From assembly GCF_002259415.1 (NCBI RefSeq), contig NZ_NPFY01000003.1:1-64000 (forward strand): 64,000 nucleotides of DNA. The letters are read 5' to 3'. A program made the translations under genes and the position numbers. Source of the stretch: Rhodococcus sp. 14-2470-1b (GTDB lineage Bacteria > Actinomycetota > Actinomycetes > Mycobacteriales > Mycobacteriaceae). Shown one piece after another: positions 11,467-13,988 of this stretch. The stretch's first letter is position 1. Each line of letters opens with the position of its first letter. The notes under the pieces are model-generated. The model was not told the DNA's origin. It searched no databases and was given only the letters and a program-made list of their open reading frames with translations.

Positions 11467-13020
11467 TCATTCGTAGATCCCTTCCACTCGCCACCCGTCG
11501 TCGCCGTAGAGAAGCAGCAGGGCACGGGTCTCCTCGAACAGCACCTGAACGCGCGCGCCCTGTGTACCTACGGTGGGATCCCACCAGCGTTCGTCGATCG
11601 GCCATGGTCCGGCCCACCCTCGTAGTGGCCACGCCTTGCTCCCCCACCGCAGTGTGACCGGGCGGGTGTCGAAACTTCCGCGCAGGCCGACGTGCACGTC
11701 GTTGCCGTTCGCGTCCTCCAGCGTCACCCGAGGAGACGTGTCCATCACTGCTGCCGGTGCGGGCGCGGGGAGCCTGCCGGGCCACGGAGCAGCCGGATCC
11801 GACAGGGGGACCAACTCGTCGCCCAGACTGCGCAGAGTCACTCGGTCGCCGGGGCCACGCCCCCCGCTCAGCACGCCGATCTTCACCGAGTCGCCGCCGA
11901 GAAGTCCCTGCACACGGACCAAGGCACGTCTGGCGCGTTCCTCCTCGTCGCCGACGCTTCCCCAGAGGCCGAGTTGGAGCTCACCGGCCGCGACCACCTC
12001 GACCGGTTCCAATCGCAGCATCGTGATGCCCGACGTCGGTTTGGCGACGCTACGCCCGGTGAGCCAGCCGTCGAGTTGCCACCGCACGCGGTCTGCGGTT
12101 CCTTCCGGGGTCAGCGGCTCGGCGCATCGCCATGTTCGCGAGAGGTTCTCGCCGTTGCCGGTCGATGCATGGACGAGGAGCCGAGTGCAGGCAACGGCAG
12201 CGGCCGCCAATTTCGTGTGCAGTTTCTCCGCCATTCCCCTGCCCGCGAAGGCCGCTGCGTCCACGCGATCGATCGGCGGATCGCACTGGTATTCCACGTT
12301 CAGGTCCGGTGGCAGGGCGCGAGCCGACGGTGGACGCTCCGCCTCACCCCTCGCGCTCCGATGGGCGAGCACGGCGTCGGTCCCGAAACGGGACGCCACA
12401 TCACCGGGAGTGAGGGCTGCGAAATCACCGACGGTGCGCAGACCCAGACGTCGGAGGAGATCGATCAGGTCTTCCCTGCCCGCCGCGGCCAGACTGGGTT
12501 CTGCCGCCAGTTCCGATACCGGCAGCGGCGCGAGATAACGAGCCCCACCGCCCCGGGGAACGATCACGGCATGCCTGGCTGCGATAACCGCCGTCGACAA
12601 CTCGTCGGCGATCCCTATCTGACATTCGACGCCGGCCGCGGCCGCCTGATCGATCAACCGCTCGGCTGCGTTGTGCTCGGATCCGAAGTACCTGCTGACG
12701 CCTCGGGCGCCGAGGATCAGCAACCCCGGCCGCAGTACCTCCACACCCGGCGCAACCATGTCGACGGCTGCGGCAACCGGCTCGAACATCCGGCCGTCTC
12801 GATCCGAATCAGCCGTCACCACATGCACATCGGGACAGCGAGCCTGGGCCTCACGTTTGCGCAGGCCCCGCCGTACACCGTGTGCGCGGGCAGGTGCCGA
12901 ACATGCGATCACACGATTGGCGGACACCACCGCCACCGGGCTGGTCGCCGGAAGATCGGCGACGGCAGCAGCCGCGACCGCGGGCCAGTCCGGGCACCAC
13001 AGCGCCAGCACCCGGCTCAT
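11467..13020 (-). CDS. imuB: Inactive Y-family polymerase homologue ImuB
   Basis: 517 residues from an ATG at 13020. The Y-family fold is recognisable, but the catalytic motifs are gone. The N-terminus reads LALWCPDWPAVA where active enzymes have an Asp-x-Asp near aromatic residues, and EVLRPGLLILGARG stands where S-x-D-E is expected. A beta-clamp motif QLGLWG is at residues 349-354, close to the QLPLWG of M. tuberculosis ImuB. Established role: scaffold joining the sliding clamp, ImuA' and DnaE2 in the mutasome. A helix-hairpin-helix region (LIDLLRRLGLRTVGDFAAL) is near 185-203. Its start is coupled to imuA' through three 17-bp minicistrons. The protein after about residue 360 is less conserved. 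Confidence 0.93.
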   Translation of the reverse strand: MSRVLALWCPDWPAVAAAAVADLPATSPVAVVSANRVIACSAPARAHGVRRGLRKREAQARCPDVHVVTADSDRDGRMFEPVAAAVDMVAPGVEVLRPGLLILGARGVSRYFGSEHNAAERLIDQAAAAGVECQIGIADELSTAVIAARHAVIVPRGGGARYLAPLPVSELAAEPSLAAAGREDLIDLLRRLGLRTVGDFAALTPGDVASRFGTDAVLAHRSARGEAERPPSARALPPDLNVEYQCDPPIDRVDAAAFAGRGMAEKLHTKLAAAAVACTRLLVHASTGNGENLSRTWRCAEPLTPEGTADRVRWQLDGWLTGRSVAKPTSGITMLRLEPVEVVAAGELQLGLWGSVGDEEERARRALVRVQGLLGGDSVKIGVLSGGRGPGDRVTLRSLGDELVPLSDPAAPWPGRLPAPAPAAVMDTSPRVTLEDANGNDVHVGLRGSFDTRPVTLRWGSKAWPLRGWAGPWPIDERWWDPTVGTQGARVQVLFEETRALLLLYGDDGWRVEGIYE

Positions 13021-13071
13021 GCCTGTGCCCGATTCATGTCTGCGCCCGATTCATGTCTGCGCCCGATTCAT
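13017..13071 (-). repeat. Three 17-bp tandem repeats forming ATGA-coupled 6-residue minicistrons
   Basis: On the minus strand the unit ATGAATCGGGCGCAGAC occurs twice and then ATGAATCGGGCACAGGC once, directly before the imuB ATG. Each unit's ATG opens a 6-codon frame that stops at a TGA overlapping the next ATG. The peptides are MNRAQT (13051-13071), MNRAQT (13034-13054) and MNRAQA (13017-13037). The imuA' stop overlaps the first ATG and the last TGA overlaps the imuB ATG. The unit resembles the first 17 bases of imuB (12 of 17 identical), so it may have arisen by duplication of that start. Confidence 0.9.
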
Positions 13072-13988
13072 GCCAGCACCGCCACTCTGTCGGCACCGAC
13101 GGACGCAACGGACGGGACCTCGAACCACTCGACGCGTCCGCGCTCGGAACGTAGGTCGAATCGAGTGGAACGAGTGCGCATCGCCTTCCCCTGCGCGCGT
13201 ACTTCCAGCCGGAGACCACGAAGCCGCCCACGGCCTGCACCGTCTCCGGTTCCGACACCGTCGACGCCGGCCACGGACGCATCGAGCCTCAGGTCCACCC
13301 CGTCCCAGTGCCCGTCCGTCACCAGAAGCGAAGCACCCTTGCTTCGAGCGCGTGCAACGACGGCACGTGCTCGCGACGGCGGCACCGACCTACCACCGAG
13401 ACCGAGCACGACCAGGTCCACTCCGTCGAGCAGGATCGCGGCCACTTCCACCGGGTCCTCTCCCGGATCGGGAACCATGGCCAGTCTGTGCAACTGCGCT
13501 CCCATCTCGGACGCTGCGAGCAACCCGAAGCGCGGTTGACCGACCACTGCCACGTGACCGCCTGCAGCCGTGACCGACGCGACCATGCCGAGCATCAGAG
13601 AACCCGCGCCGGACACTGCGGTCACCGACCCTCGAACCAGGCCTCCGTGAGGGAGGACAGCCGCAAGCGCCTCCGGGACACTCAACACCTCTTTTGCAGG
13701 TGCGCGTGTGCTTTTCTGCTGTTCGAGGCGGTTGTCGGGCGCCGATGGCTCGGCCGACACAGGGGCACTCGACCGTGAAACCGAGGGACGGGCGACCGAG
13801 CGTGTTTCGCCCTTGGACGGCACAGCGGCCATGCGGCGCCGAAGATGTTCCACCCTCTCCGGCAACGACATGCTCTCCAGCGCAACACTGCCGTCATGAA
13901 CAACACTGCCGTCATGAACAACACCGCCGTCATGAGCAACACTGTTGTCGCGGGAGATATCGTGCCGAGAGTCGGCGGAAACAGACAT
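13068..13988 (-). CDS. imuA': Mutasome accessory protein ImuA'
   Basis: 306 residues from an ATG at 13988, preceded by a strong GGGGAGG. The RecA-like core begins near residue 95 (VLPHGGLVRGSVTAVSGAGS). The loop SGAGSLML stands where RecA has a GKT P-loop, so ATP binding is doubtful, as in this family. Three 6-residue repeats, V-[AV]-H-D-G-[GS], occupy residues 17-34. A second Met at residue 40 (MSLPERVEHLRRR) is the likely ancestral start, so the first 39 residues look like an added tail. The C-terminus is Arg-rich and ends in an ATGA overlap with the minicistron chain before imuB. In mycobacteria ImuA' binds ImuB and is needed for DnaE2-dependent mutagenesis. Confidence 0.88.
   Translation of the reverse strand: MSVSADSRHDISRDNSVAHDGGVVHDGSVVHDGSVALESMSLPERVEHLRRRMAAVPSKGETRSVARPSVSRSSAPVSAEPSAPDNRLEQQKSTRAPAKEVLSVPEALAAVLPHGGLVRGSVTAVSGAGSLMLGMVASVTAAGGHVAVVGQPRFGLLAASEMGAQLHRLAMVPDPGEDPVEVAAILLDGVDLVVLGLGGRSVPPSRARAVVARARSKGASLLVTDGHWDGVDLRLDASVAGVDGVGTGDGAGRGRLRGLRLEVRAQGKAMRTRSTRFDLRSERGRVEWFEVPSVASVGADRVAVLA
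13887..13940 (-). repeat. 18-bp tandem repeat in the imuA' N-terminus
   Basis: Three in-frame 18-bp units on the minus strand encode the peptides VAHDGG, VVHDGS and VVHDGS. Most of the length variation between these units is at single bases. Because the unit is a multiple of three, copy-number change would alter only tail length. Confidence 0.8.

Follow-up and report, generated by a model that had tools for sequence, protein, structure and literature searches.

On the minus strand of the window (the whole stretch of 64,000 nucleotides that was analysed), imuA' and imuB were linked by three 17-nt units through four successive ATGA junctions, and every unit was a full 6-codon frame whose stop lay within the ATGA opening the next frame (Table 1). 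The best explanation of the array, with a probability of about 0.68, is that the imuB start site was duplicated in tandem across a short direct repeat and that the units work as a passive relay. The imuA'-imuB array was one case of a wider pattern at gene starts in the genus.

Table 1. Positions of imuA', imuB, the three units and the ATGA junctions in the window
Feature	Positions	Strand	Description	Basis
imuA'	13068..13988	-	306 aa from first ATG	ORF; NCBIfam NF058630 ImuA', E 1.9e-56
imuA' TGA	within first ATGA junction	-	3' end of imuA' reads ...GTG CTG GCA TGA, finishing at 13068	sequence
ATGA junctions, first to fourth	13071-13068, 13054-13051, 13037-13034, 13020-13017	-		
Unit 1	13055..13071	-	ATGAATCGGGCGCAGAC; minicistron MNRAQT, stop within following ATGA	sequence
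Unit 2	13038..13054	-	same sequence as unit 1; minicistron MNRAQT	sequence
Unit 3	13021..13037	-	ATGAATCGGGCACAGGC; minicistron MNRAQA, stop within imuB ATGA	sequence
imuB	11467..13020	-	517 aa, start on fourth ATGA	ORF; Pfam IMS, E 4.9e-14

Anatomy of the array

The imuA' stop and the imuB start were 47 nt apart. Units 1 and 2 were identical, and unit 3 differed from both at two bases. The sequence-only reading of this DNA had described a chain of four ATGA words and three 6-residue minicistrons, and this was exact, its coordinates and frames being confirmed on the minus strand; its count of 12/17 bases shared between the unit and the imuB start was also correct (counted by eye). It had further argued that 17-bp units keep the coupling since each of them restarts translation, a logic that was supported.

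Tandem Repeats Finder (TRF) detected the array independently (13017-13074, period 17, 3.4 copies). The 64 kb window gave 35 TRF rows, five of which scored above the imuA'-imuB array; short tandem arrays were common, and this one was unusual by its place and frame, not by being a repeat. The 5.9 Mb genome had the pattern ATGA-13N-ATGA-13N-ATGA at three sites (4 overlapping hits), all three directly preceding a gene, and the reversed-pattern control gave 1 hit. The unit plus the following ATGA, with up to 2 mismatches allowed, was found in the genome at imuA'-imuB only; a dispersed mobile repeat was ruled out by this confinement of the unit to its site. An assembly artefact was unlikely, as an independently sequenced relative had one unit in the same place.

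The homologues of ImuA' and ImuB were neighbours on the same strand, as in the ImuA'-ImuB mutasome operon. ImuA' (by its NCBIfam name) and ImuB are parts of the DNA-damage mutagenesis machinery. The actual start of imuA' may lie further inside the ORF than the first ATG. An 18-bp tandem array with ATGA (13883-13944, minus strand, 3.4 copies) was present at the imuA' 5' end and read in frame as VVHDGS repeats, and translation of imuA' may in truth begin downstream of this array; the nearest relative had a similar array (C5:1065105-1065168).

Variation of the junction within the genus

imuB was present in all 37 genomes of the genus. A direct NTGA overlap of imuA' and imuB with no unit was found in 35 of them, and the nearest relative of the window genome (G004) had one unit at the junction, encoding the peptide MKWEQA, a junction common to this relative and Rhodococcoides fascians A44A (L049). 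Comparison of the unit number across relatives, which had been proposed from the sequence, gave a difference of 3 vs 1 at imuB, with no units in the other 35 genomes. One unit in the nearest relative and none in 35 genomes show that the site is young, the first unit having been gained recently and the copy number having changed afterwards.

Two aligned blocks covering imuA' and imuB showed 97.2% identity between the window genome and its nearest relative. The unit common to both differed at 3/17 bases with flanks 97% identical, so that both the peptide and the unit sequence are free to vary. In unit-less relatives (e.g., G034), the bare junction carried the same 9 bases on either side at 17-bp spacing; this 9-base direct repeat would be a ready template and would seed a 17-bp duplication. 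The same 5' segment of imuB was repeated in tandem and in frame in other species, as 15-bp units (e.g., G009, G014, and G022) or as 18-bp units (G035), so that the segment is a recurrent duplication site.

ATGA arrays at gene starts in the genus

The 37 genomes of the genus were scanned for three ATGA words at fixed spacing. Places with such triple words numbered 17 at period 14, 3 at period 16, 25 at period 17, 3 at period 19 and 8 at period 20. Places with periods 14, 17, and 20 (2 mod 3) were therefore 50 vs 6 with periods 16 and 19 (1 mod 3), counting overlapping places and including orthologues, against 20 vs 32 in the reversed-pattern controls (Fisher 2.4e-8; 6, 27, 14, 5, and 0 for periods 14, 16, 17, 19, and 20, respectively).

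The context was read at 41 sites including the window, comprising all sites at periods 14, 16, 17, and 19 (overlaps merged) and, of the 8 places with period 20, two. True tandem arrays, defined as having the last two units at least 60% alike, were 33 of the 41. Arrays with periods 14, 17, and 20 ended precisely at the start ATG of a long ORF (at least 90 codons, GC3 > 0.7) in 21 of 29 cases, and arrays with periods 16 and 19 in 1 of 4. As a reference, 2.8% of the ATGA words were gene starts in 1.2 Mb of the nearest relative (longest-ORF starts). The 21 gene-start arrays belonged to 17 gene families by our own count, 14 of which had a Pfam domain above the curated cut-off, including a response regulator, a deaminase, two ABC-transporter proteins, a molybdopterin oxidoreductase, an MFS transporter, a 2Fe-2S subunit and a zincin. 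A frame open for at least 100 codons ended on the first ATGA in 13 of the 21 arrays, and no frame open for 100 codons did so in the other 8; these are counts of open frames and not gene calls.

The last unit resembled the start of its own gene (mean identity 0.51 outside ATGA) more than the starts of other genes (0.32; 23 arrays), which supported the origin by duplication proposed in the sequence-only reading. Units were linked in 27 of 29 arrays with a period of 2 mod 3 and in 0 of 4 with a period of 1 mod 3; this linkage follows automatically from a period of 2 mod 3 if no stop lies inside the unit, cannot arise with 1 mod 3, and adds nothing alone. Tandem arrays outside gene interiors in the nearest relative, for which gene calls were a simple GC3-based ORF choice, leaned to 2 mod 3 (19 vs 11; periods 8-50), a lean that may have a mutational origin or in which relays may already be counted. 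Lone relays were hardly enriched genome-wide: among 114 non-overlapping NTGA pairs in 1.2 Mb of the nearest relative, the relay frame closed in 30 and the control frames in 23 and 19, and one relay therefore proves little, as it can be due to chance.

Two further arrays of 17-nt units were observed in the window genome. An HTH-regulator gene (Pfam HTH_31), which we take to be clgR, had 17-nt ATGA minicistrons in its leader, with 2 units in the window genome (L253, C70 ~49532) and 4 in the nearest relative (L246, C5 ~550938), followed by a 14-codon ORF overlapping the gene start. Two 17-nt minicistrons, MKDFHS and MTDSRS, preceded a 2Fe-2S subunit gene (L252, C1:327718-327755).

The imuA'-imuB junction across the family

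Matches were found in 383 of 401 genomes of the family, of which 237 loci, a subset taken by listing order and genus plus 80 named loci, were examined; 7 were skipped, four with no imuA' match and three with an imuA' frame entering imuB with no stop (L196, L197, and L201, in G174, G219, and G365), the imuA' and imuB matches of these three lying in one frame in a fusion-like manner. There were 185 distinct junctions, 101 with a direct overlap, 36 with one to three relay cistrons and 48 others. The relay cistrons had 3-137 codons and unrelated peptides, and were found in the lineage of the window and in Antrihabitans cavernicola (11 codons); in Nocardia they were widespread. Among loci with Nocardia as the record name, relays were present in 13 of the 18 analyzed (a nineteenth was skipped). 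The relay state changed at least 9 times on a FastTree tree, which was a rough one as it was built from 185 short fragments. The imuB start region seemed to be duplicated over longer distances in the relay region of L101 (Nocardia colli) and L160.

A second type of chain, beginning out of frame in the last 45 nt of imuA' and ending on the imuB start, was found in 20 of the 48 other junctions; the remaining 5 named Nocardia loci were of this type. NTGA coupling was missing at 36 of the 185 junctions. Chains of the second type were present in 17 of these 36 junctions with no NTGA stop, and the same looser test was positive in 24 of 242 gene pairs of this kind in the nearest relative. At CTGA-type junctions (L115, L116, L117, L118, L170, L238, and others), out-of-frame ORFs ending on the imuB start often began at an ATG located 11 nt ahead of the imuA' stop and had up to 154 codons; in L225, the out-of-frame ORF reached up to 203 codons from a TTG start.

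Junctions with an NTGA imuA' stop and frames not directly fused were 48, and 38 of them had an NTGA imuB start. The relay frame closed on imuB in 36 of these 38 and the other two frames in 7 and 8, in a set that was family-related and partly selected, so that the counts are not independent. With no NTGA stop, 25 of the 36 junctions had an NTGA imuB start, and closure occurred in 5 for the real frame and in 17 and 7 for the others, the 17 being high because of the second relay type.

The relay ORFs examined that had at least 30 codons were 26, 17 of the first type and 9 of the second type, the latter hand-picked from 20 hits with L175 omitted. Their GC contents by codon position were 0.72/0.70/0.75, flatter than the 0.76/0.61/0.82 of the adjoining imuA' ends. 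In pairs of related relays, pN was higher in the relay than in imuA' in 9/9 pairs and pS was higher in 7/9. Relay ORFs look uncoded: their frames are open, but nothing marks them as encoding a selected protein.

Proposed mechanism and alternative explanations

A ribosome finishing imuA' would restart at the overlapping ATG, make an unimportant 6-residue peptide and terminate on the next ATG, and would arrive at imuB after four restarts. A duplication with a length of 2 mod 3 that carries ATGA and has no internal stop would retain the stop-start overlap by itself, and would for that reason persist at coupled gene starts; a length of 1 mod 3 would break the coupling, and such duplications would disappear. 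The anatomy of the array, its recent gain, the recurrence, and the frame and position bias of arrays were observed; we infer both that ribosomes pass along the whole chain of units and that the arrays are filtered by selection for coupling. In E. coli, a study of reinitiation (PMC10666635) gives the last 15 nt of the upstream gene as enough for coupling, and a 38-nt gap as cutting reinitiation by 80-90% in two gene pairs and abolishing it in a third. By analogy with this effect of a 38-nt gap, imuB would be expected to lose its coupling across a bare gap of 47 nt, and the chain of six-codon frames would offer a route that does not.

An unlikely alternative, if the first to be weighed, is that the copy number is a tuning knob: each restart would lose ribosomes, and the number of units would set the ImuB:ImuA' ratio and may vary fast. 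The sequence-only reading had suggested such tuning, with a consequence for mutagenesis. The copy numbers of 3 vs 1 between relatives with 97% identical DNA, those of 2 vs 4 in the second array, in the HTH-regulator leader, and the in-frame tandem copies of the imuB 5' segment in other species of the genus agree with it. Against it, 35 of the 37 genomes had no unit, the arrays preceded very different genes, and passive preservation of coupling would account for the same facts. Equally doubtful is a wider proposition for the genus, in which start sites are duplicated in tandem under a frame filter, making chains of relay cistrons of 5-7 codons generally and fast, the copy number sets the output ratio of the coupled genes, and genes like imuB have a translational counter open to resetting by slippage.

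Initiation of imuB by itself, the units being neutral remains of slippage whether translated or not, is somewhat less probable again. Short tandem arrays were common in these genomes, some relatives had no NTGA overlap and lone relays were near the level of chance genome-wide, all of which would fit; on the other hand, the predicted Shine-Dalgarno was weak before imuB and units 2 and 3 (-2.3 kcal/mol; -4.3 before unit 1, with a mean of -3.9 in 101 direct junctions), and ATGA arrays clustered at the starts of genes and within a single frame class.

The units could also be a ribosome-loading platform like synthetic bicistronic designs, with extra starts that raise imuB initiation and keep its start unfolded. 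This is improbable, as the Shine-Dalgarno match in the units was no better than in shuffled ones (-3.34 vs -3.46 kcal/mol; 23 arrays), by which amplification of a Shine-Dalgarno was ruled out, and the RNA fold at the window junction was not unusual (z -0.90). In its favor, the 8 of 21 arrays with no 100-codon frame ending on the first ATGA would act as leaders, and short ORFs that deliver ribosomes are among the proposals in a review (PMC12548453).

A function of the hexapeptides themselves or of a conserved RNA element, e.g., a stalling leader, is very improbable in spite of the identity of units 1 and 2, as the peptide was MKWEQA in the nearest relative with 3/17 bases changed between 97% identical flanks, the peptides were unrelated between sites, and no Rfam match was found at the site; a functional peptide was ruled out by this divergence, an RNA element by the lack of an Rfam match together with the ordinary fold, and a leader-peptide attenuator or stalling ORF by peptide, fold and Rfam results alike.

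Comparison with known systems

The imuA'-imuB array, taken as a passive relay, would be a variant of coupling by termination-reinitiation. It was like gene pairs with a -4 nt ATGA overlap in that every junction was an ATGA stop-start overlap, and differed from them in that three inserted minicistrons turned one overlap into four.

Mycobacterial interspersed repetitive units (MIRUs), which vary in copy number, were the closest described analogue, both systems having a repeat at a start codon and an ORF overlapping the downstream start at -4. A 2025 review (PMC12548453) describes MIRUs as inserting at start codons with their ORF coupled downstream at -4 spacing, and as apparently mobile. MIRUs are a dispersed family, whereas the units here were 14-20 nt, site-specific and similar to the start of their own gene; they look like local, gene-specific duplications and not like a dispersed family.

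In bicistronic design leaders, the Shine-Dalgarno of the second cistron is embedded in the first. The arrays here differed from these synthetic leaders in being natural and tandem, with 5-7 codons and no enrichment of an embedded Shine-Dalgarno. The short first cistron of a bicistronic design is described as bringing ribosomes to the gene of interest (PMC12548453; PMC5995908). In the axe-txe operon, a minigene is reported as a very short ORF that affects the translation of the downstream gene (PMC8708949); it is likewise a very short ORF within an operon, differs in belonging to a toxin-antitoxin operon, and is likened here by description only. Among the matches listed in the open-access literature, none dealt with minicistron arrays at imuA'-imuB or in Rhodococcus.

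The natural series of 0, 1, and 3 units at imuA'-imuB, and of 2 vs 4 elsewhere, is ready for measuring the efficiency of restart after very short frames, and for asking whether a ribosome restarts several times in succession. If relays keep coupling, arrays would be a sign, readable from sequence only, of gene pairs that need coupling. The arrays would represent a route by which out-of-frame duplications survive inside operons. Since both ImuA' and ImuB are components of the mutagenesis machinery, the mutation rate may depend on the ratio between them.

Other repeats in the two genomes

Pattern hits on contig C1 of the window genome were mirrored on both strands between ~483 and 614 kb, which suggests a large inverted duplication, perhaps an effect of the assembly. 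Intergenic regions at several sites on contig C5 of the nearest relative contained tandem repeats of 33-39 bp that formed one family, having in common a core of approximately GGAGTGGAGCCTGCAGGAACGACC.
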